From Terrimonas sp. (GTDB lineage: Bacteria; Bacteroidota; Bacteroidia; Chitinophagales; Chitinophagaceae), in NCBI RefSeq assembly GCF_003075435.1, contig NZ_QCZJ01000038.1, positions 1 to 43,717 of the forward strand: a stretch of 43,717 nucleotides of DNA, written 5' to 3'. The position numbers were made by a program, and so were the translations under genes. Positions 124-33,644 of the stretch are shown piece after piece (the first letter of the stretch is position 1; each line of letters starts with the position of its first letter). The notes beneath the pieces are model-generated. The model saw only the letters and a program-made list of their open reading frames with translations. It had not been told where the DNA came from and ran no database searches.

Positions 124-193
124 CACTAACACCTGACCCCTGATAGCTGATGCCTGACAGCTGATACCTAACAGCTAACACCTGATACCTCAC
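124..193. repeat. Degenerate heptamer array, ten units
   Basis: Ten back-to-back 7-base units run without a phase break. The plus-strand consensus is NNCTGAY with some CTAAC variants; AGCTGAT appears twice. On the minus strand the core is RTCAGNT, the same core as the arrays at 29361 and 29999. No gene stop codon adjoins it inside the window. The period is read directly; the function is unknown. Confidence 0.8.
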
Positions 194-204
194 CGCCATA
201 ATAA

Positions 205-248
205 AAAGCATTAGGGCATCTACCCCTTCGGGAGATGCCTTTTGCTTT
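205..248. terminator. Long hairpin, probable terminator
   Basis: Nested perfect arms are present: AAAGCA (205-210) with TGCTTT (243-248), GGCATCT (215-221) with AGATGCC (233-239), and CCC/GGG around a TTC loop. A T-rich tail overlaps the outer right arm. It would suit the end of a rightward transcript entering from left of the window, though the symmetry permits either direction. Confidence 0.6.
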
Positions 249-765
249 AAACCAACTACAACATGAGAAAAAAGAAAGTGAAAATATTTTGAGGAAAGAT
301 CTGTTCAAAGTGTTCTATTCATTAACGGCAGTTAAATCGGAAATATTATTTATGCCGTGAATATTATTTATTGCTTATGTTTCTTAGTATTTTTTAAGCC
401 TCTGCTTAAAACAAACCGGCACATTAAATAGTATCATATTGCTGCAAAGCAAAGAGATGAATAATGAAATTATCATTTGGTAAGCCATATATTTTTGAAA
501 AATCTTCTTCGCAAAAATGTCATTCTGAACTACTTAAAATTTAGTATATCACTCCATCGAATATATCCTGCAGATATAAAAAATAACAAAGACTAAATAA
601 TAAAATTGCTGCGTTAAAGATCCCGATAGTGAAATTATACCCTAACCCCTATACAAGCCTGTTAAGGCAGAACCAAACGTACCCTGGCCATTGAAATATG
701 GCCGCTTAATCCATACCCGGAACAAAAAAGTGTTGATAGCAAAATCACAGCCTCTCAACATCTAC

Positions 766-797
766 AAAAAAACCCTCCGTAAAAGGAGGGCTTTTTG
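766..797 (-). terminator. Intrinsic terminator after the PDZ gene
   Basis: CCCTCC (773-778) and GGAGGG (785-790) form a perfect stem around a 6-base loop. Read leftward it ends in seven T (plus-strand A run 766-772), which makes a classic rho-independent terminator just past the PDZ gene stop. A T run on the other side (792-796) means it could also stop rightward transcripts. Confidence 0.85.
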
Positions 798-810
798 TTT
801 TTAGCATCTG

Positions 811-1839
811 CTAAAGATCTGTCGTCTTTAATTTCTTTGGTATCTTAACATCGATTGTTACAGGAGAACCATTTCTCAATACTTTTACCGGGTATGTAGA
901 TTTGTCTTTTACCTCAGCCATCTTCTCACGGGCGTCGTCTGTGCTCTTAATATCCTTACCATCTATATTGGTAATGATATCATCTTTTTTAATGCCCGAC
1001 TTAGCTGCCGCAGACGAATCTTCCAGGTCAATTACTTTCACGCCATTACCCTCTTCTGTATCCTGTATTTTTATACCCAGCCGGGGGCGGTTGTTAAACA
1101 TAATGCCCGGAGCATTAAACTTAAACTCTTTTGCAAAATCATCGTTAAACTGGGGCGCGTTAAGATTAAATGATCTTGCAAACGATTCCTTACGCTCGCC
1201 AAGTTTAAGTGTGAGCTTCTTTTCTTTTTTATCTCTCAGGTAGGTAATTTTTATTGCATCATCAGGTTTTTTATTGTTGATGATGGAAGAAAGAGAAGAA
1301 GGATCGGTAACAGATGTTTCATCAATCTTTGTAATGATATCCCCTTTCATTAAACCCGCTTTTGCAGCAGGGCTGTCATCAACCACATTAGTGATCCTGG
1401 CGCCTTTCTCGTCTTTATCTGTATATACGCCAAGCATTGCTTTTGGCTCACTTGTCCAGTTCATACCATCACTGTCAAAGCTAAAGCCCGGGGCAATAAT
1501 TGCAGCAGGAGGAACCGGGGGAATAGGTGCACCGGGCGTCCATACATGAGCTTTAGTCAGATTATTATCGTAACTAAAATCAAAATCCATATCATCTCCA
1601 TGCACGTTTACTGAAACATCTCCTTTATACGCTTTGGCAGGTTTTCCATTGATCGTAACATTGTCTCCATCAATTACAATGGTTGTTTTCTCGTCCTTAT
1701 CTCCTTTCTTTTTGATGATGATCTGTTCCTGTTTTCCTTTTTTAATTTTCTTATCCTGCGCCTGCAAACCTGCTACTGAAAACAAACAGCCTGCAGCCAC
1801 AAAAGCCAGCGCTGAGCGCTTATACATTGAAGTGTTCAT
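811..1839 (-). CDS. Secreted protein with two PDZ domains
   Basis: The 342-residue product starts with a signal peptide (about 1-28, ending in VAGLQAQ). A lysine-rich acidic stretch and a proline-rich linker (about 101-117) follow, then two PDZ domains at roughly 134-213 and 253-335. Both contain a GxxxxDxI-type core (GLMKGDIITKID and GIKKDDIITNID). There is no trypsin-like or S41 protease domain, so it is not a complete DegP or C-terminal processing protease. It is more likely a periplasmic binding or scaffold protein for C-terminal tails. It has its own promoter and terminator. The stop codon lies in a small inverted repeat (TTTAGCA 800-806 with TGCTAAA 809-815). The partner is unknown. Confidence 0.85.
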   Translation of the reverse strand: MNTSMYKRSALAFVAAGCLFSVAGLQAQDKKIKKGKQEQIIIKKKGDKDEKTTIVIDGDNVTINGKPAKAYKGDVSVNVHGDDMDFDFSYDNNLTKAHVWTPGAPIPPVPPAAIIAPGFSFDSDGMNWTSEPKAMLGVYTDKDEKGARITNVVDDSPAAKAGLMKGDIITKIDETSVTDPSSLSSIINNKKPDDAIKITYLRDKKEKKLTLKLGERKESFARSFNLNAPQFNDDFAKEFKFNAPGIMFNNRPRLGIKIQDTEEGNGVKVIDLEDSSAAAKSGIKKDDIITNIDGKDIKSTDDAREKMAEVKDKSTYPVKVLRNGSPVTIDVKIPKKLKTTDL

Positions 1840-1873
1840 ACAAAATATTTTAATTACGAAAGTTTTAGTAGAT

Positions 1874-1919
1874 CAAATGTAGAAGATTTTTCTGAAATAC
1901 GAAACATTTCGGAAATGTT
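1874..1919 (-). promoter_or_regulatory. Promoter and palindromic operator of the PDZ gene
   Basis: Read leftward, TACATTTG (1874-1881) fits the Bacteroidota -7 element TAnnTTTG. Exactly 19 bases upstream lies TTTC (1901-1904), one base from the TTTG -33 element. A perfect inverted repeat with 8-base arms and a 1-base centre, AACATTTCGGAAATGTT (1903-1919), overlaps the -33 box, where a bound protein could block or recruit RNA polymerase. The leader is about 30 bases. The regulator is not identified. Confidence 0.6.
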
Positions 1920-2001
1920 AAAAAAAATCAGATAGCACATCAATAGTATGAGCTCATAGCGAAGGTCGTGGCGTAACAGGCTGATACTTAAAAGAGATTT
2001 T

Positions 2002-2526
2002 CTACCCTTTAGCCAACTGTTCCAGCCCGGCGGTATATTTTTTTGCACCTCTAAATACAAACAAATCAACAGAGAAAAAAATAAGGGCTTGTATGGCAAG
2101 TGCTATTCCAACACCCTGCCATAAGGCTTTTGAAGGTAAACTATCAGCGTTTTGCTTATTTACCACAATAAGAATAACACCCGTCACCAACGCTGCCAGC
2201 TCAATGCCTAAAAAAAGTTTTACACTATTTGTCATTTTCTGCATACGGGGAAGCTCGGTAGTTTTCAATTTATCCGGGTTCATGTCAAAAGCATATACGT
2301 TGTCTATCCTTTGTTTATCGCTTTTGCTGTAAGGTGAGTATCCCATAGCCAATTGCGCAATGCCCAATAGTATCAGCGGAATAGCCATACCCTTATACAT
2401 ATTTGTTTTTATAAAGATCAGGAAGGCGATAGCGGTGAGAATAGCCACAGCACCTGCAATCATTAAAATAAGCCCGGCATTTTTTTCTGACAAGAAATAT
2501 TGTTCAATAGCTGTTTTGGTGAGCAT
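2002..2526 (-). CDS. Small membrane protein, four predicted helices
   Basis: The 174-residue product has four hydrophobic segments at about 17-39, 46-63, 102-122 and 135-158. A polar loop (about 64-100) lies between the second and third. No catalytic or binding motif is recognisable. A basic, glycine-poor tail ends in EQLAKG. It lies head-to-tail behind nothing in the window and is divergent from the M56 gene, 164 bases away. I do not recognise the family and assign no function beyond integral membrane protein. Confidence 0.75.
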   Translation of the reverse strand: MLTKTAIEQYFLSEKNAGLILMIAGAVAILTAIAFLIFIKTNMYKGMAIPLILLGIAQLAMGYSPYSKSDKQRIDNVYAFDMNPDKLKTTELPRMQKMTNSVKLFLGIELAALVTGVILIVVNKQNADSLPSKALWQGVGIALAIQALIFFSVDLFVFRGAKKYTAGLEQLAKG

Positions 2527-2605
2527 AATACAGGTATTTGAGTGAAGATTATATAACCCTGTCCAAATGTAACAATTGGTTTTAACCCGCGAAAGGTAAA
2601 AAAGA

Positions 2606-2649
2606 TTTGGTGATTTACGATTTAAATATATCTTTACGAAATAATCGTA
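2606..2649 (+). promoter_or_regulatory. M56 promoter with BlaI-type operator
   Basis: TTTG (2606-2609), 19 bases, then TATCTTTA (2629-2636) matches the Bacteroidota consensus except for the final base. TACGAAATAATCGTA (2635-2649) has perfect 5-base arms and overlaps the end of the -7 box and the likely start site. Another TACGA half-site lies in the spacer (2616-2620). TACGA-type palindromes resemble operators of BlaI/MecI repressors, the usual partners of BlaR1-type M56 peptidases. No BlaI gene is adjacent. Confidence 0.65.
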
Positions 2650-2690
2650 GGTTTAATACATTAAACTTCTCTTCATTTAAAAGATAGTTT

Positions 2691-4610
2691 ATGCAAATCA
2701 TTGCTGATTACATTATCAAGCTGTCTGTAAGCTTTGCTATCGTGTTCCTGTTTTATAGGGTGGCACTGAGCAATCTCACTTTTTACAAATGGAACCGTAT
2801 TTATTTGCTGGCATATACTTCGCTATGTTTTTTCATTCCGTTCGTAAATATTATGCCGGTCATCCGCAAAAGCGGGGCTGAGCGTATAACAATGCTTAAT
2901 ATGATACCAGCCCTTCAAACAACCAACGCTCCGGTATTTACAGGAGAAAACAAGACGGCAGCAACTGTTGGCTGGCCGGTAATGCAGGCCGTGATTGTAG
3001 GAATAGCGGCAGTAAGTATTGTATTATTAACCAGGATGATCATTCAGTTAATATCACTCAAAAAAGCGATCAGGTATGCTCAATTAATTGCTGATAAGGA
3101 AGTTAAACTTTACCATATTGACAAGGATATCATTCCATTTTCTTTTGGTAATGCTATTTTCATCAATACCAATTTACACCAGGCAGATGAATTAAAGGAG
3201 ATCATTTGTCATGAATTTGTGCATGTAAAACAAAAGCACAGTATAGATATTTTGTGGGCGGAGTTGCTTTGTATTTTTAACTGGTTTAATCCCTTTGTAT
3301 GGCTTTTAAGGCATGCCATCAGGCAAAATCTTGAATTTATTGCCGACAATAAAGTAGTGGAAAGTGGGATGGATAAAACACAATATCAATATCTTTTATT
3401 GAAAGTGTTGGGCAACAATCATTTTGCTGTGGCAAGTTCTTTTAATTTTTCTTCTTTAAAAAAAAGAGTTTTTATGATGAATAAAATCAAAACAACTAAA
3501 GTTCACTTGCTTAAATTTCTTTTCATTCTGCCATTGATGGTTATATTACTTCTTGCATTCCGTTCAAAACAAGGTGGAACAACGCGCTCCGGATTTTTTA
3601 CAATAGCAGGCATTGTGGTAGATAATGAAACACTTCAACCTATTGAAGACGTTATAATTGGCGATGTTTTTTCTGGAACACAGGCTGCATCTGATAAAAA
3701 AGGGTATTATGCTTTAAAAATACCTGTGATCAATAAAGATACTTTGCAGGTCCGCTTTAGTTATCAAAAAGAAGGCTACCCCGGGAATACAAAGATGGCG
3801 GCGTTGCAAACAAGCAACCCGGTTACAGAATCAAATGATATAATCATAATTGGAATCAATAAGAATAATAGTAATACATATATACATGGATATGGATCAG
3901 CGAAAAGAAACAGTCAAATAGTAAACCCTGATTATGACCTGGTATATGCTAAGTATATTGATTTTATTGACGACAAAAAAACTGAAGCCCAAATTGGCAA
4001 CTCTCCTAAACCTGTTCATATTATCAACGGAATCCCTTACGCGGTTGGCAATGGTTCTATGGCATGGTTTGACCAGGAAGAAGTAAATAATTCTTCTGAA
4101 TGTAAAGTTTGGGCAGATGGAAAAATTATGTCAATTGACGAAGCTAATAAAACTATTAACCGTTATGAATTAAACGGAGTAGCAGCTGTGCCACGTAAAG
4201 AAGCTAAAGAAAAGTTTGGAATAGATTGTAATATATTGGTTTTAATGAAAGACAGTTTAAATCCCATACAACACAACCCTCCAAAAAAAGAAGAAAAGAA
4301 ACCGGGAATATCTACTGCCTACTTTATCACACCTTCCCTGGTGTTAGATGGCAAAACAACGACTTTAAAAGCGTCAGGACCATTCAGCGGACGATTTATT
4401 GGAAATAATAATGATACTCTAAAGGCAATGTCGGCTTCAGGAGGAGTATATGAACTAAATAATACTGATATAGTTACATTAAATGGAACTAAAATGGAAA
4501 CAAATAAATTATATTCTATATCTCCGCTTTATCAATTTAAAATCATCTCGTCAGCGAACTTTAAAAATAACGGTTCAAGAAATATAGAAATAACTACAGT
4601 GCCCCTGTAA
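2691..4610 (+). CDS. BlaR1-like M56 membrane peptidase
   Basis: The 639-residue product begins with membrane helices. A zinc peptidase domain carries HEFVH at residues 174-178, the HExxH motif of family M56. A further helix (about 271-291) follows, then a carboxypeptidase-regulatory-like beta domain (about 300-375). The last 240 residues are of unknown fold and probably periplasmic. Known relatives sense a cell-wall or envelope signal and cleave a BlaI repressor. In Bacteroidota the BlaI gene usually sits directly upstream; here the upstream gene points away. A TonB-type barrel gene starts 31 bases downstream, so the two are likely one transcript. The ligand is unknown. Confidence 0.88.
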   Translation: MQIIADYIIKLSVSFAIVFLFYRVALSNLTFYKWNRIYLLAYTSLCFFIPFVNIMPVIRKSGAERITMLNMIPALQTTNAPVFTGENKTAATVGWPVMQAVIVGIAAVSIVLLTRMIIQLISLKKAIRYAQLIADKEVKLYHIDKDIIPFSFGNAIFINTNLHQADELKEIICHEFVHVKQKHSIDILWAELLCIFNWFNPFVWLLRHAIRQNLEFIADNKVVESGMDKTQYQYLLLKVLGNNHFAVASSFNFSSLKKRVFMMNKIKTTKVHLLKFLFILPLMVILLLAFRSKQGGTTRSGFFTIAGIVVDNETLQPIEDVIIGDVFSGTQAASDKKGYYALKIPVINKDTLQVRFSYQKEGYPGNTKMAALQTSNPVTESNDIIIIGINKNNSNTYIHGYGSAKRNSQIVNPDYDLVYAKYIDFIDDKKTEAQIGNSPKPVHIINGIPYAVGNGSMAWFDQEEVNNSSECKVWADGKIMSIDEANKTINRYELNGVAAVPRKEAKEKFGIDCNILVLMKDSLNPIQHNPPKKEEKKPGISTAYFITPSLVLDGKTTTLKASGPFSGRFIGNNNDTLKAMSASGGVYELNNTDIVTLNGTKMETNKLYSISPLYQFKIISSANFKNNGSRNIEITTVPL

Positions 4611-4641
4611 TTTTTTTATCTGTTTAATATATTAAAAATTC

Positions 4642-7425: not shown

Positions 7426-7496
7426 TGGAAGGTATAGAGAGGATGGAGTAAGGCAGATGGCTTGTGCCCTATACCTTACTCCACCTGCCTTCTACC
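7426..7496. repeat. Inverted heptamer array filling a convergent spacer
   Basis: The 71 bases between two convergent stop codons are ten 7-base units plus one base. The left five units end mostly in GG, and the right five are the inverse type starting CT or CC. TACCTTA recurs exactly 21 bases apart (7472, 7493). Perfect stems are possible: AAGGTATAG (7429-7437) with CTATACCTT (7469-7477), or GGAGTAAGG (7445-7453) with CCTTACTCC (7474-7482). The two exclude each other. It may act as a bidirectional 3' end; no T tract is present. Confidence 0.8.
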
Positions 7497-16689: not shown

Positions 16690-17808
16690 TTATTGTTTCT
16701 GCTGCACAAAAGGTAGCTTAGAAACTTTAGCTTTCAGGAGTTTATCTCTTACTTCTATAAAAATTTCGCTATCAATAGGTGAAAATGCAGTGCTTACATA
16801 TCCCATACCGATAGCCCTGCCTAATGTGGGAGACTGTGTACCAGAAGTTACCCTTCCTATAAGATTACCCTCCGCGTCTTTTATGCGGTAATCATGGCGG
16901 GGAATTCCCCTGTCAATCATTTCAAAACCAACCAGTTTTTTATCCGGTCCTGCTGCTTTTTGCTTTTGCAGGTATTCGCTTGCTGTAAAGTTTTTGGTGA
17001 ATTTAGTTATCCAGCCCAGTCCGGCTTCAAGTGGTGTGCTGAAATCATCAATATCGTTGCCATACAGGCAATAGCCCATTTCCAGCCTGAGTGTATCCCT
17101 TGCACCTAAACCAATCAGTTTTAATCCTTTCGGTGTGCCTTCTTTAAAAATAGCATCCCAGATTTTATCGGCGTTCCCGTCTTTATCTTCAAAATATATC
17201 TCCAGGCCTCCGGCACCGGTATAGCCGGTAGCGCTTACTATTACATTATCAACTCCGGCAAATTTTCCTTTTACAAAAGTGTAATACCTCAGGTTCAGGA
17301 TATCCATATCTGTAAGCGGCTGTAATATTTTGGAGGCATTGGGCCCCTGTATTGCCAGCAAACCGGTACGGTCTGAAATATTGTGCATTTCAGCGCCATT
17401 GGTATTCTGAAATTCAATCCAGTCCCAGTCTTTTTCAATATTGGCGGCATTTACCACCAGCATATACACTCCTGCCTTGCCGGCATGCAGGTTATTTTCT
17501 TCAATGCAGTATACCAGCAGGTCGTCTACAATACCTCCGTTTTCATTGGTTAAGCAGCTATACTGAATTTTTCCTGCGGTGAGCTTTGAAGCATCATTGG
17601 TAGTAACCCGCTGAATAAGTTCCAGTGCATTTTCTCCTTTAAAAATAAATTCACCCATGTGGCTAACATCAAAAACCCCGGCATTGTTGCGCACTGCCGC
17701 ATGTTCATCATTAATTCCGGTATAGCTGATGGGCATATTATAGCCTGCGAACTCAGCCATCTTTGCACCTGCCGCTATATGTTTTGCGGTAAAAGGAGTT
17801 TCTTTCAT
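16690..17808 (-). CDS. gcvT: Glycine cleavage system aminomethyltransferase (T protein)
   Basis: The 372-residue product has the GcvT order: an N-terminal [19 protein letters not shown] near 47-53 in the folate site, QGPNASKIL, the [13 protein letters not shown] block and the C-terminal [13 protein letters not shown] beta domain. It transfers the methylene group of lipoyl-bound glycine to tetrahydrofolate and releases ammonia. The genes for the P, H and L proteins are not in the window, as is common in Bacteroidota. It is downstream of the gamma carbonic anhydrase gene, separated by 110 bases that contain a heptamer array. Confidence 0.95.
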
Positions 17809-17870: not shown

Positions 17871-17933
17871 CATTGCCCGTTGCCCACCGCTCACTGCCCA
17901 TCGCCCACTACCCATCGCCTATTCCCCATCCTT
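17871..17933. repeat. Heptamer array containing a stop codon
   Basis: Nine 7-base units run in phase, plus-strand consensus CAYYGCC; CATCGCC occurs twice, 14 bases apart (17899, 17913). On the minus strand the units read GGCRRTG. The last units overlap the final codons and TAG stop (17919-17921) of the carbonic anhydrase gene, so the array starts within the coding sequence and runs into the spacer before gcvT. Confidence 0.82.
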
Positions 17934-18440
17934 AAACCAACTGCTGTACATCAGGTAATTATTAGCGATACGGTTTATTTCCCCGCTGATCAGTTCCTGC
18001 GAGATGGTTTTTACCTTTTTTGCAGGCACACCTGCATAAATGGAATTAGGCTCAACCTTTGTTCCTTCCAGCACAACCGCGCCGGCTGCAATAATAGAAA
18101 AACTGCCTATCTCCGCGTTATCCATCACTATTGCGCCCATGCCTATCAGCACATTATCATGCACTTTACAGCCGTGCACAATGGCATTATGGCCAATACT
18201 TACATTGTCGCCAATAATGGCTTGTGTTTTTTGATATGTGCAATGGATAACAGCCCCATCCTGGATATTCACCTTATTACCAATCCTGATGGCATTTACA
18301 TCTCCCCTTACCACTGCGTTAAACCATATACTGCAATCATTACCCATCACTACATCTCCCACAATAGTAGCATTGGGCGCTAAGTAGCAGTTTTCGCCAA
18401 TTGCGGGATATATTTCTTTTACAGGTAAAATTAAAGCCAT
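17919..18440 (-). CDS. Gamma-class carbonic anhydrase-like hexapeptide protein
   Basis: The 173-residue product is a left-handed beta helix built of hexapeptide repeats ([LIV]Gxxxx), from about 15 to 135. Three histidines, H66, H84 and H89, sit at the spacing of the zinc or iron ligands of gamma carbonic anhydrases (Cam/YrdA family). Trimers bind metal between subunits. CO2 hydration is the family's name activity but many YrdA-type members are poorly active, so the role is uncertain. A C-terminal amphipathic helix follows. The last codons lie in a heptamer array. It appears to be in one leftward operon with the PfkB gene and gcvT. Confidence 0.87.
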   Translation of the reverse strand: MALILPVKEIYPAIGENCYLAPNATIVGDVVMGNDCSIWFNAVVRGDVNAIRIGNKVNIQDGAVIHCTYQKTQAIIGDNVSIGHNAIVHGCKVHDNVLIGMGAIVMDNAEIGSFSIIAAGAVVLEGTKVEPNSIYAGVPAKKVKTISQELISGEINRIANNYLMYSSWFKDGE

Positions 18441-18449
18441 TGGAATAAG

Positions 18450-18498
18450 AGGTTACAAGTTTCAGGTCTCAGGTTTCAGGTTCCACATTCCCTATTCC
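18450..18498. repeat. Heptamer array filling the PfkB-carbonic anhydrase spacer
   Basis: Seven 7-base units run in phase, plus-strand consensus AGGTTTC sliding into CTATTCC. AGGTCTC (18464), AGGTTTC (18471) and AGGTTCC (18478) are adjacent. On the minus strand the array begins one base after the TAA stop of the kinase gene (18500-18502) and ends 9 bases before the next ATG, so it makes up nearly the whole 59-base spacer. Confidence 0.85.
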
Positions 18499-18499: not shown

Positions 18500-19429
18500 T
18501 TAACGCGAAACCAATGATATATCAAAGCTTACCAGGTCAATAAATTCCTGCAGTCTTTCATCTATTTCCTGCCTTGTAAGTTCTCTTAAACGAGTGGTCC
18601 CAAATTTTTCAACGCAGAATGAAGCGATGGCTGAACCAACAATAATAGCGGTTTTCATTCCTTCAAAAGAAAAATCTTTTGTACTGTCGAGATAACCTAC
18701 AAAACCTCCTGCAAACGTATCACCTGCTCCGGTTGGGTCAAAAACTTCTTCAAGCGGGAGTGCCGGTGCAAAAAATACATGGTCTTTGTGAAACAATAAT
18801 GCACCATGTTCTCCTTTTTTAATAATAAGATATTTAGGACCCATTTTTAATATTTCCTTGGCTGCTCCTACCAATGAGTATTGCCCGCTGAGTTGTCTTG
18901 CTTCACTATCATTTACCAGCAATACGTCAACTTTGGCAATTACCTTTTCAAGATCTTCCATGGCTGTTTCCATCCAAAAGTTCATAGTATCGAGCACTAC
19001 AAGTTTTGGGCGTTTTTTCAACTGTTCAATTACGCCAAGCTGCACGGTGGGAGAAAGGTTGCCGAGCATCAGTATATCCGCATCCTGGAAATTATCCGGA
19101 ACTACCGGTTCAAACTCACCCAAAACATTTAATTGTGTTTCCAGGGTATCTCGGGTATTCATGTCCATATGATAGCGTCCTTTCCAGAAAAAAGATTTCT
19201 TATCTTTTTTTATCTGCACGCCATCCAGTTGCACACCTCTTGCCTTTAATGTATCTAATTCTTCCTGAGGAAAATCACCGCCAACTACTGATATCTGCTG
19301 TATAGGTTTTGTAAAGTTTGAAGCGCTCCAGGCAATATAGGTTGCCGCGCCACCTACAATTTTATCGCTTTTTCCAAAAGGAGTTTCAATTGCATCGAAA
19401 GCCATTGAGCCAACTACAATAACGGACAT
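18500..19429 (-). CDS. PfkB-family sugar or nucleoside kinase
   Basis: The product is 309 residues from the ATG at 19429, where MSVIVVGSMAFDAIETP begins the ribokinase fold; an in-frame upstream extension of 15 residues looks spurious. The C-terminal signature DPTGAGDTFAGGF contains the anion hole and catalytic aspartate. An N-terminal GG pair (KIVGGAATYIAWS) binds the substrate. Ribokinase-family enzymes phosphorylate sugars or adenosine using ATP; the substrate cannot be read here. It heads a leftward group with carbonic anhydrase and gcvT genes. Confidence 0.88.
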   Translation of the reverse strand: MSVIVVGSMAFDAIETPFGKSDKIVGGAATYIAWSASNFTKPIQQISVVGGDFPQEELDTLKARGVQLDGVQIKKDKKSFFWKGRYHMDMNTRDTLETQLNVLGEFEPVVPDNFQDADILMLGNLSPTVQLGVIEQLKKRPKLVVLDTMNFWMETAMEDLEKVIAKVDVLLVNDSEARQLSGQYSLVGAAKEILKMGPKYLIIKKGEHGALLFHKDHVFFAPALPLEEVFDPTGAGDTFAGGFVGYLDSTKDFSFEGMKTAIIVGSAIASFCVEKFGTTRLRELTRQEIDERLQEFIDLVSFDISLVSR

Positions 19430-19520
19430 GTGTGATTTTATTTGGGGTTTATATAATTTTAAAAAACGGTGCAAAGCTAATGTAAATATGTTAAGAGGCT
19501 CAGCCTATTTGCGGCACAAG

Positions 19521-26525: not shown

Positions 26526-26531
26526 AAACAA

Positions 26532-26562: not shown

Positions 26563-26607
26563 GCAGAAAGGATTGCAACGATTATTTCCTGTATCTATTG
26601 TTGTATA

Positions 26608-27198: not shown

Positions 27199-27200
27199 GC

Positions 27201-27857
27201 TTAATGTTTAATATCCTTATGATCAGGATGCCATATGCTGCTGAAATCTCCTACCACTGCAATATTATTAATAAAGTTAAGCCTGTGAATTTTCAACAAA
27301 GCTACATCCTCCTGGTGCACCTTCCTGTACATGGGATGCATTGTGCCGCCGGGTACACCCGCGGGTTTTGAAGGGTCGTATTGAAATTGCGGGTCTACAA
27401 GTGTACCTCGTGGATACATAATGCCAGGTATGCCCTTACCTCTAAGGTCAAGGTCAGCCGGGTGTTGTAAACCGAGTGTATGTCCATATTCATGCGCCGC
27501 TGTTGTAGAACCCTTATACAGGTTTTCTAATTTAAAATAACCGGTATTGCAACCCAACCCATCCACAAAAGAAATGTTGCCATGTGCAAATTCCTCAATG
27601 CGAAAATAATTGTTGTTCGGATCATCGTTGCCCAATATTTCTTCTGGTTCAATTAAAGGTTTATGCTCAGCGGAAATTTTGAATTGAACCAGGTAGTCTC
27701 TCTCATTAAAGAAAACATATGCCCCGGGCTCATTCCACATGGTCTCTATTTCATCCCGTATCTGTTCTGTAAGCTCAGGAGTTGATGCATTTCCATAGGT
27801 AATGATATGCGAAAAAATAACAAATGAACCAGGTGACAATATTTCAACTATACCCAT
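27201..27857 (-). CDS. Zinc metalloprotease of the metzincin type
   Basis: The 218-residue product carries the metzincin zinc site HEYGHTLGLQH, with H122, E123, H126 and H132, and a Met-turn IMYPRG with M147. This arrangement fits M10/M12-like or related bacterial zincins. No signal peptide is visible: the N-terminal end is MGIVEILSPGSFVIFSH, which suggests a cytoplasmic protein or export by another route. Almost the whole length belongs to the protease domain. It directly precedes acpH in the same transcript. The target is unknown; no inhibitor gene is adjacent. Confidence 0.8.
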   Translation of the reverse strand: MGIVEILSPGSFVIFSHIITYGNASTPELTEQIRDEIETMWNEPGAYVFFNERDYLVQFKISAEHKPLIEPEEILGNDDPNNNYFRIEEFAHGNISFVDGLGCNTGYFKLENLYKGSTTAAHEYGHTLGLQHPADLDLRGKGIPGIMYPRGTLVDPQFQYDPSKPAGVPGGTMHPMYRKVHQEDVALLKIHRLNFINNIAVVGDFSSIWHPDHKDIKH

Positions 27858-28124
27858 ATCTTGGCGTTAAAACAGAAAGATAATAAAACTACAGTATAGC
27901 ACTTAGGGAAAATGGAAAACAGCTCTACAAAATGAAAGCTGTTTTTTATGCCGGCGATGACACCGGAAACTTCGCAGGAGTTTGTAAAAAAAATCGCAGC
28001 TTATGAGGGTATTTTAAAGCCTGATTAATTGAATTGGTAAAGCCAATATAACCCTGACCATTGTCGTCCGCCTGTCATATTTCCACATTATGAACCATTT
28101 AACAACTGGTATGTGTTGTTAGAT

Positions 28125-28132
28125 TATTTTTG
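28125..28132 (+). promoter_or_regulatory. -7 element of the JmjC-like gene
   Basis: TATTTTTG fits TAnnTTTG and lies 19 bases before the ATG. A TTTA at 28098 is 23 bases upstream, wider than usual, so only the -7 part is convincing. Confidence 0.4.
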
Positions 28133-28151
28133 CGTTAAAATTTAAGGGCAT

Positions 28152-29039
28152 ATGTTACTTAAAGCTGTAGATACTGTTGACCTGATTGCACCAGAGGGTT
28201 TTAAAAAAAATTATTACGAAGCAGGCAAGCCATTGATCATAAAAAACCTTGCTAAAGAATGGCCCGCCTATCATAAATGGAACTGGGATTATTTTAAAGC
28301 AATTGTAGGCGATAAAAAAGTTGGTATATATAATAATACAAAAAGCGATGCCTATACTCCCATAAATAGAGCAGATGATTATACCACCTTTGGAGAATAC
28401 GTGGATATGATAAGCAAAGGACCTGCCGGTTGGAGAATATTTTTGTTCAATATTTTTGACCACGCCCCACAGCTTACACATGACTTTGAGTGGCCCGATG
28501 AGTTGATGAAAGGATTTGTAAAACGCTTTCCTATGTTGTTTGTAGGCGGCGCATCCTCCATAACGCATATGCATTTTGACATCGACATGTCTCATATCCT
28601 GCATACCCAGTTTGTTGGCAAAAAGAGAGTATTACTGTTTCCCTATGAAGAACAGCATAAATTATATCGCAAGCCTTATGAAGTGTTAAGTCTTGCCGAT
28701 TTTTCACATTATTACCAGCAAAACGGCACTCCCGATTACAGCAAATTTCCTGCGCTGAAACTTGCCAGGGGCTACGAAGTAATACTTGAACATGGCGATA
28801 CCCTGTTTATGCCTGCCGGCTATTGGCACCATATGGAATACCTGGACAGCGGTTTTGCTATGAGCCTCAGAGCGCTTCAATCAAGCATCACCGGCAAACT
28901 TAAGGGAGCATGGAATCTTATCGGCATGCGCAATATTGATACACTGATGAAAAAAACCGCGCCCAAATGGTGGTACGATTATAAAAAGGAAAAGCTTATT
29001 ACTGCCGCCAAAAAAGAGCTGGAAGAAGCAGGCGTATAA
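28152..29039 (+). CDS. JmjC/cupin-8 Fe(II) oxygenase-like protein
   Basis: The 295-residue product has the facial-triad motif H141-x-D143 (MHFDIDMSH) and the distal H226 (AGYWHHMEY). An EHGDTLFMPAGYWH strand, the hallmark of FIH-like and JmjC hydroxylases, is also present. These use iron, oxygen and 2-oxoglutarate to hydroxylate amino acid side chains, often of proteins. Position 1 follows from a -7 element 19 bases upstream. A C-terminal basic segment (about 255-290) resembles the dimerisation helix of that group. The substrate is unknown; the gene stands alone. Confidence 0.85.
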   Translation: MLLKAVDTVDLIAPEGFKKNYYEAGKPLIIKNLAKEWPAYHKWNWDYFKAIVGDKKVGIYNNTKSDAYTPINRADDYTTFGEYVDMISKGPAGWRIFLFNIFDHAPQLTHDFEWPDELMKGFVKRFPMLFVGGASSITHMHFDIDMSHILHTQFVGKKRVLLFPYEEQHKLYRKPYEVLSLADFSHYYQQNGTPDYSKFPALKLARGYEVILEHGDTLFMPAGYWHHMEYLDSGFAMSLRALQSSITGKLKGAWNLIGMRNIDTLMKKTAPKWWYDYKKEKLITAAKKELEEAGV

Positions 29040-29324
29040 TATTTCTACTTTCTTTTTTGGAATATTCAGCGCACGTATTAAATTTGTGCTAATATATATC
29101 AGCCGGGAATTTAAAAGTGAATGGCTTTGAACCGGGAACTGGTCTAATCTTATCCAAATTATCTTACAGAATCTAATATTTTCTTAAGGACAACCTACAC
29201 TGCCAACCTGTAATTATTTCTACTTTACTGAAATTAAAATTATTGGTATATACCATCATTGCCGTATTGTTCAAAATATGCGGTAATGTACAAGTCTCTT
29301 TTGTGGTTTCAGAGGTAAGCACAG

Positions 29325-29353
29325 GCCGGTGATGTCTATCGCCGGCATTTTTA
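29325..29353 (+). terminator. GC-rich hairpin with T tract
   Basis: GCCGGTGAT (29325-29333) pairs with ATCGCCGGC (29338-29346) over 9 positions with one G-T wobble around GTCT, followed by A and five T (29348-29352). It has the form of an intrinsic terminator. It lies 286 bases past the JmjC stop, which is far for a 3' end of that gene, and may instead end an unseen short transcript. Confidence 0.6.
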
Positions 29354-29360
29354 TGTAATG

Positions 29361-29416
29361 GGTTAGCTATGGGTAGTGAGCTTTGAGCGGTCAGCTATCG
29401 GCAATCAGCGGCGAGT
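29361..29416. repeat. Degenerate heptamer array, eight units
   Basis: Eight 7-base units run in phase; the consensus is NNTSAGC. Individual units GTTAGCT, GTCAGCT and ATCGGCA are shared with, or one base from, units at 124-193 and 29999-30027 (in inverse orientation there). It lies 8 bases after a terminator hairpin and 320 bases from the nearest stop codon. Confidence 0.75.
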
Positions 29417-29502
29417 GCCTTCAGCGCCGGCATCAAGCAACCGGTAATAGGAAAGACTGGTAGTAGTTGAAGAAAGGTCATTATAGTGTTGGTGGTAGTA
29501 CA

Positions 29503-29975
29503 TTACTTAAAAACAGAGATTAGGTCAGGCTTGGGAAGTGTCTTAATATCGGCTTGATGTTTATTAATATGATTCCAATAAATTTTATGACCGTCTTTTT
29601 CTTCTTTTATTAGCGGTAAAGCGTCAACCCATTTTATTTTATAAAACTCTTTTAGTTTATATTCAGGCGAAAAAACAATTATTATTAATTCGTCTATATC
29701 AGCAGTGGGGTCACGTTTAATATAACTCCAACGAGCATAAGTCGATGCCGCTTTTGCATGTGTTTTTACTTGAATTTTTGTATTGTCAACTTTAACATCC
29801 AACATTTCTGGATACTACTTGTCGCTCTTTTACCGTCATGAAGTTGCTCAATTAACCATTCTCCAAGTTGAGATGTGAAGTCTTTTGAATTTGGAGCAAT
29901 TTTCAATTCTCTTAGTCTTCTTAATGCTTTGAGATAGTTGAGGAGTACATTGTGTATTTCTTCGTAATTACTCAT
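29503..29975 (-). pseudogene. Frameshifted small protein with QVK nuclease-like core
   Basis: Two overlapping frames read as one protein. The first part (start 29975) covers MSNYEEIHNVLLNYLKALRR to GKRATSSIQK; the second resumes at WDVKVDNTKIQVKTHAK and ends near 29503. Adding one base near 29798-29800 joins them into about 157 residues. The D...IQVK pattern resembles the PD-(D/E)xK fold of small nuclease-like proteins (DUF6998-like is my best guess). Whether the shift is a mutation or a sequencing error cannot be told; either way this copy as read is broken. It lies between a heptamer array and korB. Confidence 0.65.
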
Positions 29976-29998
29976 GTCGATTTAGTATTGCCACCAAC

Positions 29999-30027
29999 AA
30001 GCTGATTGCCGAAAGCTGATCCCTAAT
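29999..30027. repeat. Heptamer array at the korB stop codon
   Basis: Four 7-base units run in phase: AGCTGAT occurs at 30000 and 30014, exactly 14 bases apart, with TGCCGAA between. Read leftward the units follow the TAG stop of korB (30023-30025), which lies inside the last unit. The core ATCAGCT is the same as in the arrays at 124 and 29361. Confidence 0.7.
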
Positions 30028-31060
30028 TAATCGTCCACACCTCATTTCCCCTTAAAAGCTTATCCAGGTCACCCTTACCCTTTACTGCTATGGCTTCTTC
30101 TATCTGCATCGTCATTACATCTTCATAGCAGGCACGGTCCGTTTCATAAAACACACCAAAAGGCCTTGGCAAATGCTCGTCTTTATACGGATCATCAAAC
30201 ATTCTTACCAGTACCTGGGCCTTATAAAAATCTTTTTCATCATGTATCCATAAATCATCAACGCCTGCGGAGTCGCCAATTTCTACCACTACAGGTTTTA
30301 AACCATCCAGCTTAATGCCTTTATTTTTTGCAGCGCCAAATATCAATGGTTTTCCCTGTTCAAGAAACAATGCCTGTTCAGGCTTGCTGCTTTTTTCCGT
30401 AAATATTTCAAAAGCGCCATCATTAAAAATGTTACAGTTCTGGTATATTTCTGTAAAAGAAGCACCTTTGTGTTTATAGCTCCTGATCAATATTTCCTGC
30501 AGGTGTTTGGGGTCTCTGTCCATACTTCTTGCAATGAACGAAGCATCTGCCCCCATTGCCAGTGCCAGGGGGTTAAAGGGATGGTCAATACTGCCCAGGG
30601 GCGAGGATTTGGTGACTTTTTTTTCTTCTGATGTTGGAGAATACTGCCCCTTGGTTAAGCCATATATCTGGTTATTGAAGAGCATCATATTCACATCAAA
30701 ATTGCGGCGCAGCAGGTGAATAGTGTGATTTCCTCCAATACTCAGTGCATCTCCATCGCCTGCTACAATCCAAACACTTAATTCAGGGCGGGAAGCTTTT
30801 AAGCCTGAAGCGATGGCTGTTGCTCTTCCGTGAATGGAGTGCATGCCATATGTGTTCATATAATACGGAAAACGCGAAGAGCATCCGATACCTGATATAA
30901 TTACAATATTCTCTTTAGGAATACCTAATCCGGGCATAACCTTCTGCACCTGGGCTAATATAGAATAATCGCCGCAACCGGGGCACCATCTCACTTCCTG
31001 GTCTGTTGCAAAGTCTTTAGCGGTGAGGGTGGGCTGCGCGGGAATTGCTGTAGTGTTCAT
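30023..31060 (-). CDS. korB: 2-oxoacid:ferredoxin oxidoreductase beta subunit
   Basis: The 345-residue product has CPGCGDYSIL with C26 and C29 near the N-terminal end. The thiamine diphosphate motif GDGDALSIGGNH is at about 101-112, followed by NNQIYGLTKGQYSPTS. It is the TPP-binding half of an enzyme that decarboxylates 2-oxoglutarate or pyruvate and passes electrons to ferredoxin. The alpha subunit, which normally adjoins it, is absent: the 206 bases upstream are empty. A -7-like TAAATTTG (31078-31085, leftward) precedes the gene. Confidence 0.9.
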   Translation of the reverse strand: MNTTAIPAQPTLTAKDFATDQEVRWCPGCGDYSILAQVQKVMPGLGIPKENIVIISGIGCSSRFPYYMNTYGMHSIHGRATAIASGLKASRPELSVWIVAGDGDALSIGGNHTIHLLRRNFDVNMMLFNNQIYGLTKGQYSPTSEEKKVTKSSPLGSIDHPFNPLALAMGADASFIARSMDRDPKHLQEILIRSYKHKGASFTEIYQNCNIFNDGAFEIFTEKSSKPEQALFLEQGKPLIFGAAKNKGIKLDGLKPVVVEIGDSAGVDDLWIHDEKDFYKAQVLVRMFDDPYKDEHLPRPFGVFYETDRACYEDVMTMQIEEAIAVKGKGDLDKLLRGNEVWTIN

Positions 31061-31077
31061 CGTGATAAAATGAACCG

Positions 31078-31085
31078 CAAATTTA
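31078..31085 (-). promoter_or_regulatory. -7 element of korB
   Basis: Read leftward, TAAATTTG fits TAnnTTTG and lies 17 bases before the ATG. No TTTG stands at the usual distance upstream, so it is a half-match. Confidence 0.4.
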
Positions 31086-31267
31086 CAGCTATATCGGCTT
31101 ATTTGGTTTCCTTAAAGCGGAAATAATGTTAATGCTGCTTAGGTAGCAAATCATATGCATTATGTTGATTATCAATGGTTACAGAAGCCAATCGTCTTAC
31201 ACATCATTTTTAATTTAAAAACCAACCGTAGGCTAGCAGTCATAGGAATGATAGCATCTTAGCTGTA

Positions 31268-31966
31268 TCAGGCTGTATTTACACCAAAAAGGTGCCCGGT
31301 GATTGCTGTAATGAGCATGGCGGCAGTGCCCCATAAACAAATGCGTAATACAGCAGGAATAATACCGGCGCCACCTGCTTTTGCGGCAATGGCACCTAAA
31401 AGCATAAGGAAAAATATGGCAAATATATATTGAAAATATACCATTGATTCCAGTGGTGCTACCAACGCGATTGTAAAAGGCAATAGCGCTCCGGCAATAA
31501 AGGAAGCAAAAGATGCAATGGCTGCCTGTAATGGTTTTGCAACAGTTATTTCATTTATGCCCAGTTCATCTTTTGCATGAGCCTCAAGTGCATTATGCAT
31601 AGTAAGCTGGCGGGCTACCTCAAGAGAAAGCTCTGCAGAAAGCCCCCGCTTTTGATAAATAGCTGCCAGTTCCCGTAGCTCGTTTTCAGGTGTTTCTTCC
31701 AGTTCCTGCTGTTCACGTTGAAGATCGGCTCTTTCCGTGTCACTTTGAGAGCTCACTGAAACATACTCTCCGGCTGCCATTGATAAAGCACCGGCAATCA
31801 TACCCGCTAATGCAGCCAGCACAATAGCATTACGGGTGGTATCGGCAGCGGCAACGCCTATCACAATACTTGTGGTAGAAAGTATGCCGTCATTAGCGCC
31901 AAGCACCGCGGCCCTCAGCCAGCCTATACGGTTCACATAATGCTTTTCTAAAGCGATTTCCGCCAT
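31268..31966 (-). CDS. VIT1/CCC1-family metal transporter
   Basis: The product is 232 residues from the ATG at 31966 (MAEIALEKHYVNRIGWLRAAVLGANDG); upstream in-frame residues lack any family match. The family motif ANDGILSTTSIVIGVAAAD forms the first helix, a second helix carries GALSMAAGEYVSVSSQSD, and three C-terminal helices follow (about 145-175, 182-200, 205-228). The cytoplasmic helical loop about 80-135 is E-rich, consistent with metal binding. Relatives move iron or manganese across membranes. Bacterial members lack the vacuole context, so export is the more likely direction. Confidence 0.88.
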   Translation of the reverse strand: MAEIALEKHYVNRIGWLRAAVLGANDGILSTTSIVIGVAAADTTRNAIVLAALAGMIAGALSMAAGEYVSVSSQSDTERADLQREQQELEETPENELRELAAIYQKRGLSAELSLEVARQLTMHNALEAHAKDELGINEITVAKPLQAAIASFASFIAGALLPFTIALVAPLESMVYFQYIFAIFFLMLLGAIAAKAGGAGIIPAVLRICLWGTAAMLITAITGHLFGVNTA

Positions 31967-32134
31967 TATTGATTGGGTAATTGTTTTTCTAAGATACTTA
32001 ATAACAGTAAGCTTCTGAAACAACGATATGGCTGCAAGCGGTAAGGGCCCGCAATATTGCCTCACCCGGGGAAGATTCAATTCTATAAAATTGCATGCAG
32101 TTATGCCTATAATAGATACTACCCTGAATATATT

Positions 32135-32620
32135 TTACGATAGCCGCTTTTCCATATAAATAGCATCATCGGCTGGATTAAATCTATACGCCGGTATTTC
32201 GTAAAAGCCAAAGGATCGGTATAATCCAATTGCATTTTTCATATAGGATAAAGTATCAAGACAAATGCTTTCATAGCCTGATCCTATTGCTGCATCAATA
32301 GCCATTTCCATTAAATGTCTTCCAATTTTATATCGCCTGTATTCCGGCTGAACAAACATTCTTTTTAATTCTGCAATCCTTTTGTCAAACTGCCTGATGC
32401 CTGCACAACCTACAGCCAAATCATCTTTATATGCAAGCAATATCGCGCCTGTTGGTTTATTGTATTGTATACTTATATTAGTCAATTCATTGTCAAAACC
32501 CTGGAATCCAAGATCAATATCCAGCGATTGGGCATATTGCAGAAAAAGACATTTCGCATCACTGAAATCAGCGTCTGTGACGGCTGGTTTAAAGGTAATA
32601 TGGTTGATTATATCTTCCAT
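32135..32620 (-). CDS. GNAT-family N-acetyltransferase
   Basis: The 161-residue product has a GNAT fold. A central strand VGCAGIRQF precedes the CoA-binding motif VQPEYRRYKIGRHLME (Q/RxxGxG/A-type) near 104-119, then CLDTLSYMKNAIGLYRSFGF near 133-152. It transfers an acetyl group to an amine; the substrate is unknown. A -7-like TATGTTTG lies 13 bases before the ATG. It is 168 bases upstream of the VIT1-type gene and may share its transcript. Confidence 0.87.
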   Translation of the reverse strand: MEDIINHITFKPAVTDADFSDAKCLFLQYAQSLDIDLGFQGFDNELTNISIQYNKPTGAILLAYKDDLAVGCAGIRQFDKRIAELKRMFVQPEYRRYKIGRHLMEMAIDAAIGSGYESICLDTLSYMKNAIGLYRSFGFYEIPAYRFNPADDAIYMEKRLS

Positions 32621-32633
32621 CTTAACTACAGCT

Positions 32634-32641
32634 CAAACATA
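32634..32641 (-). promoter_or_regulatory. -7 element of the acetyltransferase gene
   Basis: Read leftward, TATGTTTG fits TAnnTTTG and lies 13 bases before the ATG. No TTTG stands at the usual distance, so this is a half-match. Confidence 0.4.
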
Positions 32642-32818
32642 ATATTATCTTTTTATTTCTACGCAGCATTAAGATGCGTGGTGTAACCCGTGCAAGTGTA
32701 AAAGCGCATACAAAAGGTTCATAAATATTTTGATTAAAGATGAGCACACAACCCGTCTGCAAAACTTGAAAGTACCCGATAGGAATTAATTTCCCCGGAA
32801 AATTAATATATTCATTGC

Positions 32819-33562
32819 ATGGTAATTATAGCATTATACAACTTAAAAGGTGGCGTAGGCAAAACTGCTTCCTGCGTAAATTTTGCATATCTCGCTGCAA
32901 AAGACGGGTATAAAACATTGTTGTGGGATATAGATCCGCAGGGCTCCACAAGTTTTTACTACCAGGCAAAAGCTAAATATAAAGGCGGAATAAAAAAGCT
33001 GGTTGAAAAAGATGCAGATATTGAAGAAGCAATCATGGCTGCCAATTATGAAAATCTTGATATTATTCCCGCCGATGTTTCTGTAAAAAGCTTTGATGTG
33101 ATGATGGAAGAATTAAAATCTTCAAAAAAACGGTTAAAAAGCTTATTGCAACCGTTTAATAAAGCATACGACTTTGTTTTCCTGGATTGCCCTCCTGGAT
33201 TTTCCGTGCTGGCGGAAAATATTTTCAATGCTTCTGATATAGTATTGATGCCGGTAATCCCGACAACACTTTCTATAAGAACCTATGAAATGACGAAAGA
33301 CTATTTCAAAGAAAAAAGTATTGATCTTTCAAAGATGATGTGTTTTTTTACCATGGCCGATCTGCGTAAGAATATGCACAACGAGATAATGGAAACATTA
33401 TACAAAGACAAAAAGTTTTTTGAGAATTATATCCCCTATCTTTCAGATGTAGAAAAGATGGGGGTGCACAGGGTGCCATTGGAAGAATTTGCAAAATCAG
33501 GCTATGCCGCAAAATGCTACAGAGATTTGTGGCAGGAGATAAAGGAAGGGGTGCTGGAGTAA
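32819..33562 (+). CDS. ParA-family ATPase
   Basis: The 247-residue product has the deviant Walker A KGGVGKTAS near 10-18, a Walker A' strand with WDIDPQGS near 37-44, and Walker B FVFLDCPPG near 119-127. These are the marks of ParA/MinD/Soj ATPases. There is no N-terminal HTH, unlike plasmid P1 ParA. No parB gene or parS-like site adjoins it, so a role in positioning some other cargo is as likely as chromosome partition. A run of octamer repeats begins 2 bases past its stop. Confidence 0.9.
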   Translation: MVIIALYNLKGGVGKTASCVNFAYLAAKDGYKTLLWDIDPQGSTSFYYQAKAKYKGGIKKLVEKDADIEEAIMAANYENLDIIPADVSVKSFDVMMEELKSSKKRLKSLLQPFNKAYDFVFLDCPPGFSVLAENIFNASDIVLMPVIPTTLSIRTYEMTKDYFKEKSIDLSKMMCFFTMADLRKNMHNEIMETLYKDKKFFENYIPYLSDVEKMGVHRVPLEEFAKSGYAAKCYRDLWQEIKEGVLE

Positions 33563-33564
33563 TA

Positions 33565-33644
33565 ATTTGAAAATGAGTTAATTTGAAAATTTGAAGACGA
33601 GGGGAGTAATGTGAGAATGAATTTGAAAATGTGCTGATTTCCTG
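33565..33644. repeat. Degenerate octamer array after the ParA gene
   Basis: Ten 8-base units run in phase; ATTTGAAA recurs at 33565, 33581 and 33621 and ATTTGAAG at 33589, all at multiples of 8. Other units are variants such as ATGAGTTA and ATGTGCTG. It begins 2 bases past the ParA TAA stop (33560-33562) and ends 31 bases before the esterase ATG. Confidence 0.85.

Follow-up and report, generated by a model that had tools for sequence, protein, structure and literature searches.

Degenerate heptamer arrays between the genes of a Terrimonas sp. genome

The window, a stretch of 43,717 nucleotides of Terrimonas sp. (contig NZ_QCZJ01000038.1), carries the genes and short-period stretches given below, seven of which the initial annotation had described as strict seven-base or, in one case, eight-base arrays, five of them at or close to stop codons. 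Scores are lag-7 segment scores unless stated otherwise.

124-193, no strand assigned: degenerate heptamer array of CTGATAC type near the contig end, score 21.7, C-rich on the plus strand (skew -0.43)
7426-7496, no strand assigned: two-armed heptamer array exactly filling a 71-nt convergent gap, score 8.4 (weak)
16690-17808, minus strand: GcvT aminomethyltransferase (Pfam PF01571/PF08669)
17871-17933, minus strand: degenerate heptamer array, sense unit GGGCGAT/GGGCAGT, score 16.4
17919-18440, minus strand: hexapeptide-repeat protein (Pfam PF00132)
18450-18498, minus strand: degenerate heptamer array between the pfkB stop and the hexapeptide gene, score 22.3
18500-19474, minus strand: PfkB carbohydrate kinase (Pfam PF00294)
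29361-29416, no strand assigned: borderline heptamer array of NNTNAGC type, score 9.7
29999-30027, no strand assigned: stretch listed at the KorB stop, score 4.8, chance level, not counted as a member
30023-31060: protein with a TPP enzyme domain (Pfam), fitting KorB
32819-33562: ParA-like protein (Pfam)
33565-33644, no strand assigned: stretch listed as an 8-base array after ParA, lag-8 score 8.6, chance level, not counted as a member

Of the gene names proposed earlier, Pfam agrees with PfkB and the ParA-like protein and is compatible with KorB, while for the proposed carbonic anhydrase it gives a hexapeptide-repeat protein, which we take to be of the gamma-carbonic-anhydrase type. The period-7 observation is real, and not all seven listed stretches belong to it. 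Three are clear (124-193, 17871-17933 and 18450-18498), 7426-7496 combines a weak period with a strong hairpin, 29361-29416 is borderline and the last two are at chance level; as background, each 100 kb has 92 segments with a lag-7 score of at least 5, 8.4 (true arrays among them) with one of at least 9, and 5.6 with a lag-8 score of at least 8. The proposed contact with stop codons was found at 7426-7496, 17871-17933 and 18450-18498. No stop adjoins 124-193, whose nearest called gene lies about 618 nt away, and the closest ORF stop to 29361-29416 is at a distance of 87 nt. The array at 7426-7496 separates an OMP barrel gene on the plus strand from an SNF2 helicase gene on the minus strand (both by Pfam); on the plus strand its left arm is G-rich (GC skew +0.78) and its right arm C-rich (-0.68), and it folds with a dG of -33.4 (z -3.3) on the plus strand and -38.4 (z -5.2) on the minus strand. 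The array at 17871-17933 overlaps the stop of the hexapeptide gene and extends into the gap before gcvT, and that at 18450-18498 consists, on the sense strand, of GGGAAT-type units followed by ACCTGAA-type units. The skew of 29361-29416 (+0.35) is at odds with the polarity rule, described below, for its place.

In 684 kb of this genome (Terrimonas sp., Chitinophagaceae; G000) we found 37 strong lag-7 segments, which form our array set; the cut-off was a score of 12, which no segment passed in one 400-kb first-order randomisation. The remaining lags between 4 and 15, the harmonic at 14 excepted, gave only 1-7 strong segments each, and with 6 of them lag 8 shows no excess, for which reason an eight-base period was rejected. 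In the first 400 kb all 22 strong lag-7 segments are intergenic, and the randomised copy has none. Of the checks proposed in the initial annotation, which were run in part, the excess of lag-7 signal over shuffled DNA is thus borne out, between genes only. By extrapolation from 37 sites in 684 kb, there would be some hundreds of arrays per genome. The initial annotation's claim of a period without slips holds only approximately: inspection by eye shows phase jumps, for instance a step of 4 nt within the C1 80765 array and a 2-nt insertion in the G008 array.

Gene calls came from a home-made hexamer caller, and gene starts are therefore approximate. In the 684 kb, arrays lie in 27 of the 276 gaps between tandem genes, 5 of the 71 between convergent genes and 1 of the 89 between divergent genes, which agrees with the suggested enrichment beside stops. 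In gaps of 160-1000 bp, the 30 bp next to a stop have an array density of 3.5-3.9%, and the 20 bp next to a start have none. The lag-7 match between the last seven bases of a gene and the next seven is 0.373 at the 83 ends with an array against 0.297 (1435), and at starts the difference is smaller, 0.328 (58 with an array) against 0.277 (1611). Some arrays continue in phase across the stop codon, many have a second arm that reaches the next gene, and arrays are present between tRNA genes too, where a spacer hairpin is kept within the genus; the 'genus' sets used for counts of stop crossing and polarity include stretches fetched around arrays. Since arrays also lie between tRNA genes, the stop codon is not a causal anchor, and what stands of the proposed anchoring is the enrichment 3' of genes. 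Fail-safe stops in all frames were rejected as a basis, the frequency of sense stop triplets (0.069) differing weakly from that in shuffled (0.059, s.d. 0.004) and antisense (0.063) sequence.

Unit sequence varies by site, as had been noticed earlier. Several unrelated unit families exist within the genome, and the vocabulary is nevertheless common to it, 5.8% of segment pairs being alike against 0.5% in the null. Unit identity falls from 0.68 between neighbours to 0.62, 0.55, 0.45 and 0.36 at distances of two to five units, a fall to which two-armed arrays add. A run of three identical units occurs in none of the 37 arrays, and therefore no young slippage product is seen. Between G000 and the relative G004, one and the same gap, flanked by proteins 94-97% identical, holds different unit families. 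In ten array gaps compared between these two genomes the length differences are multiples of 7 in three (14, 14 and 28 nt), with 1.4 expected by chance; this is not above chance and lends no support to unit-wise length change, which was rejected. One gap is longer in G004 by 60 nt, through a gain there or a loss in G000, and the additional bases sit at the hairpin tip.

Orthologous gaps were compared where the flanking matches stopped no more than 12 residues short of the gene ends and exceeded 60% identity, and a wider comparison drew on a set of named loci. Arrays at orthologous gaps are patchy, with 34 of 72 comparisons positive at a cut-off of 10 and 24 of 67 at 12, the latter against 27 of 276 for tandem gaps generally; these comparisons share ancestry and are non-independent, and the loci were picked around G000 arrays. 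Array-free tandem gaps used as a control, three gaps only and one of them 6 nt long in G000, gave 0 of 23 at 10 and 2 of 28 at 12. For the array at 17871-17933, the orthologous gap passes the cut-off in 5 of 11 relatives: the units of G004 are related but decayed, G003, G006 and G008 have other units, and the array of G007 is short. For that at 18450-18498, only G004 among the 11 relatives has an array, the other ten gaps measuring 9-93 nt without one. One array occupies an operon junction that measures 9-14 nt in three relatives.

A subset of arrays has two complementary arms. An array's own arms are alike at more than 0.7 in 22 of 60 arrays against 4.1% of arm pairs across arrays, a contrast inflated by the pooling of lineages; within lineages the match gives p = 0.12, 0.004, 0.012 and 0.0005, and in G000 alone it is not significant. 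The arms have a polarity, G-rich after the upstream gene and C-rich before the next gene: 24 of 47 long runs are G-first, 1 is C-first and 22 have one sign only, while 16 of 117 runs (short, mid-gap) entered neither comparison. The C-rich arm contains 27.5% C and 5.7% G, in segments that were themselves chosen by skew. Polarity is opposite in 4 of 20 G000 arrays and 1 of 28 arrays in relatives, and weaker in other genera of the family (+0.22 to -0.49 over 10 gaps); the class/phylum set, with 4 array gaps, does not show it. It holds with other vocabularies and for single arms.

The reading that we favour, tentatively and with a little less than even confidence, is that these stretches belong to a class of degenerate heptamer arrays, spread over the whole genome, which grows and turns over by mutation in spacers free of promoter constraint. 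Slippage would best explain their origin. Replication slippage in steps of 7 nt would produce each unit as a copy of an adjacent one, altered by point mutations, and the smooth fall of identity with unit distance is expected from such neighbour-to-neighbour copying. A G/T-rich, C-poor nascent strand may sometimes fold back and copy itself into a complementary second arm, which would put the G-rich arm first and the C-rich arm second on either strand. Growth may be possible at the hairpin tip, and arrays would sometimes be overwritten by another unit family of the same genome. Under no strong selection, arrays would persist 3' of genes and in tRNA spacers and be lost wherever they intrude on promoters or coding sequence. 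In favour of this reading we also count the restriction of lag-7 to gaps, the arrays in phase across stops, the match between an array's own arms, the G-first polarity, the differing families of G000 and G004 in one gap, the tip position of the additional G004 bases, the patchy presence and the lack of a sense-strand folding advantage. Against this reading, the polarity across vocabularies and in single arms looks like constraint rather than accident, and the recurrence at the same gaps could reflect selection. Also counted against it are the conserved tRNA-spacer hairpin, the lack of three identical units, the length differences, which are multiples of 7 no more often than by chance, and the non-significant own-arm match in G000. 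In an unlikely variant, the element would be sequence-agnostic: the spacer would inherit a format (a 7-nt period and two complementary arms, with the G-rich arm leading on both strands), and its letters would be rewritten by whichever family circulates, through dedicated or regular copying at the hairpin tip.

The polarity and the placement after genes rather than between divergent genes also fit a selected RNA element, possible though on the unlikely side, in which a G-rich and then a C-rich arm would form a 3' hairpin or a C-rich, G-poor Rho-loading track that ends or protects transcripts, with only period, pairing and polarity selected. A folding z below -2 is reached by at least 15 of the 37 arrays, and one below -3 by 9; among 37 control segments from gaps the counts are 2 and 1. 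Zero energy left some arrays without a z on one strand, so that the median z is not a number, and at least one array below -2 (541108) was missed. Unit-order permutations are beaten at z below -2 by 13 of 37 arrays, and hairpins of array-free gaps lean G-first too (58 against 36 C-first in tandem gaps, 23 against 8 in convergent gaps). Whole gaps, however, fold only moderately better with an array (16 of 43 below -2) than without (9 of 58), gaps shorter than 45 or longer than 330 nt being left out. Nor is there an advantage of sense-strand folding, the sense strand being stronger in 6 of 22 cases and the antisense strand in 15, with one tie; selection on a sense-strand RNA was rejected, and the mRNA-stability element suggested in the initial annotation gains nothing from folding. 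An intrinsic terminator was likewise rejected, as a T run (5 or more T among the 8 bases that follow) comes after only 1 of 25 array stems, although control stems seldom have one either (12 of 145). The YC dinucleotides exceed unit-shuffled sequence slightly (0.684 against 0.652, z 2.3), and YC-spaced Rho sites were rejected on this marginal excess, no usable spacing rule having been found in the literature. About half of the orthologous gaps lack an array, and the operon junction reduced to 9-14 nt in three relatives also speaks against a selected RNA element. In the window and the 20-kb stretches L007, L008, L021 and L148 no Rfam family lies on the arrays, the only matches being tRNAs and one SAM riboswitch. 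REP/BIME elements are dispersed extragenic palindromes found after genes, and the arrays resemble them in being dispersed, palindromic and placed after genes. A dispersed palindromic mobile element of REP/BIME or MITE type, moved for instance by a REP-associated tyrosine transposase, would account for the common vocabulary. When 5 kb containing four arrays was used as a query, G002, G004 and G005 had 33, 34 and 34 matches, and among the matches listed the majority fell on the query's array positions. Y1_Tnp matches occur in 17 of 17 genomes. Yet the arrays are built of seven-nucleotide units and show no defined core across unit families, nor a tag, ends or fixed length, the families are several and unrelated, and Y1_Tnp counts do not track array density per 100 kb, as estimated from small samples (9 matches and 1.0 in G007, 5 and 3.0 in G002, 10 and 5.0 in G003); on these small samples the Y1 transposase was set aside as driver, and we regard a mobile element as very improbable. 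Neutral decay of simple heptanucleotide repeats through slippage only, with placement set by constraint elsewhere, is quite improbable. It agrees with the arrays being intergenic only and with the finding that, in most genomes where units of 5-11 nt abound, heptamers are the commonest class of long simple repeat (Mrazek 2007, cited after PMC4679880), but it predicts neither complementary arms, nor one-way polarity (24 against 1), nor differing families at one site.

Among known systems, the STRR of cyanobacteria are heptanucleotide tandem repeats; a 50-kb Trichormus plasmid stretch that we scanned held 2 short lag-7 segments. The initial annotation knew of no described counterpart tied to stop codons in Bacteroidota, and in the parts of the literature drawn on here this holds, except for one TAACTGA set after a stop (PMC4679880); beyond that phylum it fails. 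The sections of Rehm et al. (2015; PMC4692102) used here describe heptamer arrays of GGGAATC in Xanthomonas and GGGGA(T/C)T in Nostoc that lie 0-50 bp from stops and overlap them. They have in common with ours that the seven-base tandem units are intergenic, near stops on the coding strand and rare between divergent genes, with the G strand pointing away from flanking genes. In these sections each genome has one G-rich unit (GGGNATC or GGGGATT), often capable of forming G-quadruplexes, and Nostoc has few inverted pairs, whereas here there are several degenerate families, complementary arms in a subset and different families at orthologous sites. A G3 quadruplex motif occurs in none of our 37 arrays, and G3 quadruplexes were rejected as a basis; a looser G2 motif occurs in 7. 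TAACTGA repeats are described, in the part of MacGregor (2015; PMC4679880) used here, from five Bacteroidetes as exact repeats of a single sequence, mostly intergenic and, for the main genome, chiefly located immediately before start codons, with one set just 3' of a stop and with other heptamers noted in the same gaps; our arrays are degenerate, with no exact TAACTGA doublet in 684 kb on either strand. In the P6b stem of the Nostoc tRNA-Leu intron, degenerate heptanucleotide repeats of varying copy number pair into a hairpin, at one intron site as far as the cited text goes (PMC3488679), compared with the 37 sites here.

Previous work took up heptamer repeats singly, each sequence by itself and in phyla that are unrelated, and sought the explanation in properties of that sequence, such as quadruplexes or a start-site motif. 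New here are the same placement and polarity with several unrelated families that lack G3 motifs, and orthologous sites with different families. This suggests that the explanation lies less in the unit sequence than in the period, the arms and a copying process, and the many arrays per genome and many related species make this a testable system. The GGGAATC repeats of Xanthomonas, in the sections cited, obey the same placement rules (PMC4692102).

The draft genome of Terrimonas sp. (G000) comprises 6.18 Mb in 82 contigs, one of which, C38, is the window in its entirety. Within 400 kb of this genome, intergenic DNA shows a lag-7 identity of 0.293 against an expected 0.271 (z 11); the signal repeats at lags 14 and 21, and no lag-7 excess is found in coding DNA of the same 400 kb. 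With arrays called at a lag-7 segment score of 12, all 22 lag-7 segments of the first 400 kb are intergenic, compared with 0 segments in a single first-order randomisation, confirming the proposed excess of seven-base periodicity in intergenic DNA over a randomised control. Over 684 kb, the same cut-off gives 37 segments at lag 7, 25 at lag 14 and 6 at lag 6, but only 6 at lag 8, the period assigned by the initial annotation to positions 33565-33644, which lie at chance level. The seven arrays listed there fared unevenly: three are clear (124-193, 17871-17933 and 18450-18498), one has a weak period but a strong hairpin (7426-7496), one is borderline (29361-29416), and 29999-30027 joins the eight-base array at chance level. 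The strong array at 124-193 lies about 120 nt from the contig end, and the assembly break at this end may have been caused by repeats. The hexapeptide gene (17919-18440, minus strand) has its nearest named relatives in Chitinophagaceae and other Bacteroidota, largely MAGs.

By the gene calls made in this analysis, G000 has arrays in 27/276 gaps between tandem genes, 5/71 between convergent genes and 1/89 between divergent genes. Pooling G000 with three wider sets gives 90/1111, 12/272 and 8/344, respectively, counts that omit the class/phylum set (4/119, 0/25 and 0/25). Array density in gaps of 160-1000 bp reaches 3.5-3.9% over the 30 bp next to a stop, and the 20 bp next to a start have none. 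The lag-7 match between the last 7 bases of a gene and the next 7 is 0.373 before an array (83 ends) versus 0.297 at 1435 control ends; on the start side it is 0.328 (58) versus 0.277 (1611). The claimed link to stop codons holds for placement, arrays being enriched 3' of genes. However, spacers between tRNA genes also hold arrays (Tyr-Gly, score 14.8; Gly-Thr, score 15.4), and therefore a translation stop is not required. These spacers belong to a Thr-Tyr-Gly-Thr operon (L148:5002-5473, about 465 kb on contig C1 of G000) with heptad arms in both; the Gly-Thr spacer is recognisable by eye in G001, G002, G006, G009 and G010, and some relatives have further tRNA-like stretches at this operon. 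At the gap after g80867, G002 (stretch L168) uses TGA as the stop codon, in contrast to the TAA or TAG of the other orthologs shown. This TGA falls in phase inside the first of the units TTTCTGA TTTATGA TTTATGA, as though the stop had been overrun by the array.

The arrays display a marked strand polarity, in that the strand read away from a flanking gene, on whichever side, tends to carry G and to be poor in C. Across tandem gaps, array bases on the sense strand shift in GC skew from +0.45 (stop-proximal fifth) to -0.76 (start-proximal fifth) in G000 and from +0.77 to -0.72 in relatives, compared with 0.01 to -0.11 in control gaps; 16 of 20 arrays in G000 and 27 of 28 in relatives obey this course. 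The wider named set, whose unit vocabularies differ, repeats this course across 37 gaps (+0.55 to -0.55). Ten gaps from other genera of the family show a weaker version (+0.22 to -0.49), convergent gaps repeat it in small numbers, and the class/phylum set, with 4 gaps, does not show it. Long runs number 47: G leads in 24 and C in 1, and the other 22 have a single sign. Short runs on the left are G-rich in 19/28 and C-rich in 8/28, and those on the right are G-rich in 4/26 and C-rich in 20/26 (Fisher p 0.0002; 16 further short runs lie mid-gap, outside this comparison).

When the two 28-nt ends are compared in each of 60 arrays at least 56 nt long, from four sets, 22 have arms of one family in opposite orientation, against 4.1% for arms from different arrays (permutation p inside the sets: 0.12 in G000, then 0.004, 0.012 and 0.0005). 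Folding z falls below -2 in 15/37 arrays versus 2/37 control segments and below -3 in 9/37 versus 1/37, and unit-order permutations are beaten at z below -2 in 13/37. A T-run follows just 1 of 25 array stems (controls 12/145), and intrinsic termination is therefore unlikely. No array of the 37 contains a G3 quadruplex motif; a looser G2 motif occurs in 7.

Several unit families recur within G000, including GCTnTCA, TnGTTTn, ATTTGAn and CTGnAAC. Segment pairs from different arrays are more than 0.8 alike in 5.8% of cases versus 0.5% after column permutation. The ratio of likeness to null is 10.6 within the genome and 10.9 to the genus but drops to 3.4 for other family genera and 1.9 for wider named loci, so unit vocabularies are lineage-specific. 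Likeness is greatest between neighbouring units (0.68), falling to 0.36 at a distance of five, and three identical consecutive units are found in none of the 37 arrays in 684 kb. In stretches not picked for arrays, G000 has 5.2 lag-7 segments per 100 kb, six other genus members have 1.0-5.0 and three other family genera 3.3-9.0. Same-class genomes give 1.0 (five genomes; 2 segments in 200 kb, on a par with other lags), same-phylum genomes 0.6 (five genomes; 1 segment in 160 kb) and E. coli 0 over 50 kb; many of these densities derive from counts of 1 to 4.

Tandem gaps with an array in G000 also carry one in same-genus genomes in 34/72 comparisons (cut-off 10) or 24/67 (cut-off 12), versus 0/23 and 2/28 for the few gaps lacking it in G000. 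Units at orthologous sites are frequently unlike. For example, the gap at C1 80761-80866 has AGCTNTC units in G000 versus GGTTGCA in G004, despite 94-97% identical flanking proteins; by eye, G003 and G009 are GGTTGCA-like, G008 is GGTATAA-type, G002 and G005 are GATTT-type, G006 is GTAAG-type, and G001 and G007 have no array. At C1 81776-81840, a GTTTATA hairpin is common to G000, G004 and G008, and G002 and G005 have AATTTGA-type units. Of 38 two-armed ortholog pairs, 8 agree in the family of the stop-side arm and 18 in that of the start-side arm. G004 carries an additional 60 nt relative to G000 at the hairpin tip at 84761; length differences between these genomes are multiples of 7 in 3/10 gaps, the chance level. 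A SAM riboswitch aptamer (Rfam RF00162; L008:2826-2945) occupies a divergent gap adjoining the array-rich C1 80-85 kb.

A mutational origin is favoured by the similarity of neighbouring units, the in-phase contact with gene ends, the patchiness, the single tip difference and the lack of a sense-strand folding advantage (sense stronger in 6, antisense in 15, tie in 1; n=22). The arrays would arise by 7-nt slippage, combined with fold-back copying that wobble pairing could prime on the G/T-rich strand. The strong polarity, the recurrence at orthologous gaps and the kept tRNA-spacer hairpin nevertheless leave room for a function at the RNA level. According to Rehm et al. 2015 (PMC4692102), heptamer repeats of Xanthomonas and Nostoc are alike in unit length, gap preference, stop proximity and outward G strand, and in Xanthomonas also in inverted repeat pairs, but consist of a single G-rich unit, unlike the several families here. 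The TAACTGA arrays reported in five Bacteroidetes by MacGregor 2015 (PMC4679880) are exact, whereas ours are degenerate. Among the papers listed by searches of an open-access library, we found none describing heptamer arrays of Chitinophagales that are degenerate, two-armed and built of several families. The tandem repeat at L035:3173-3783 in G014 is of higher order, with a best offset of 139 bp (59% identity) and monomers that in turn consist of heptamer arms of GTGAATN and CCTTATA types.
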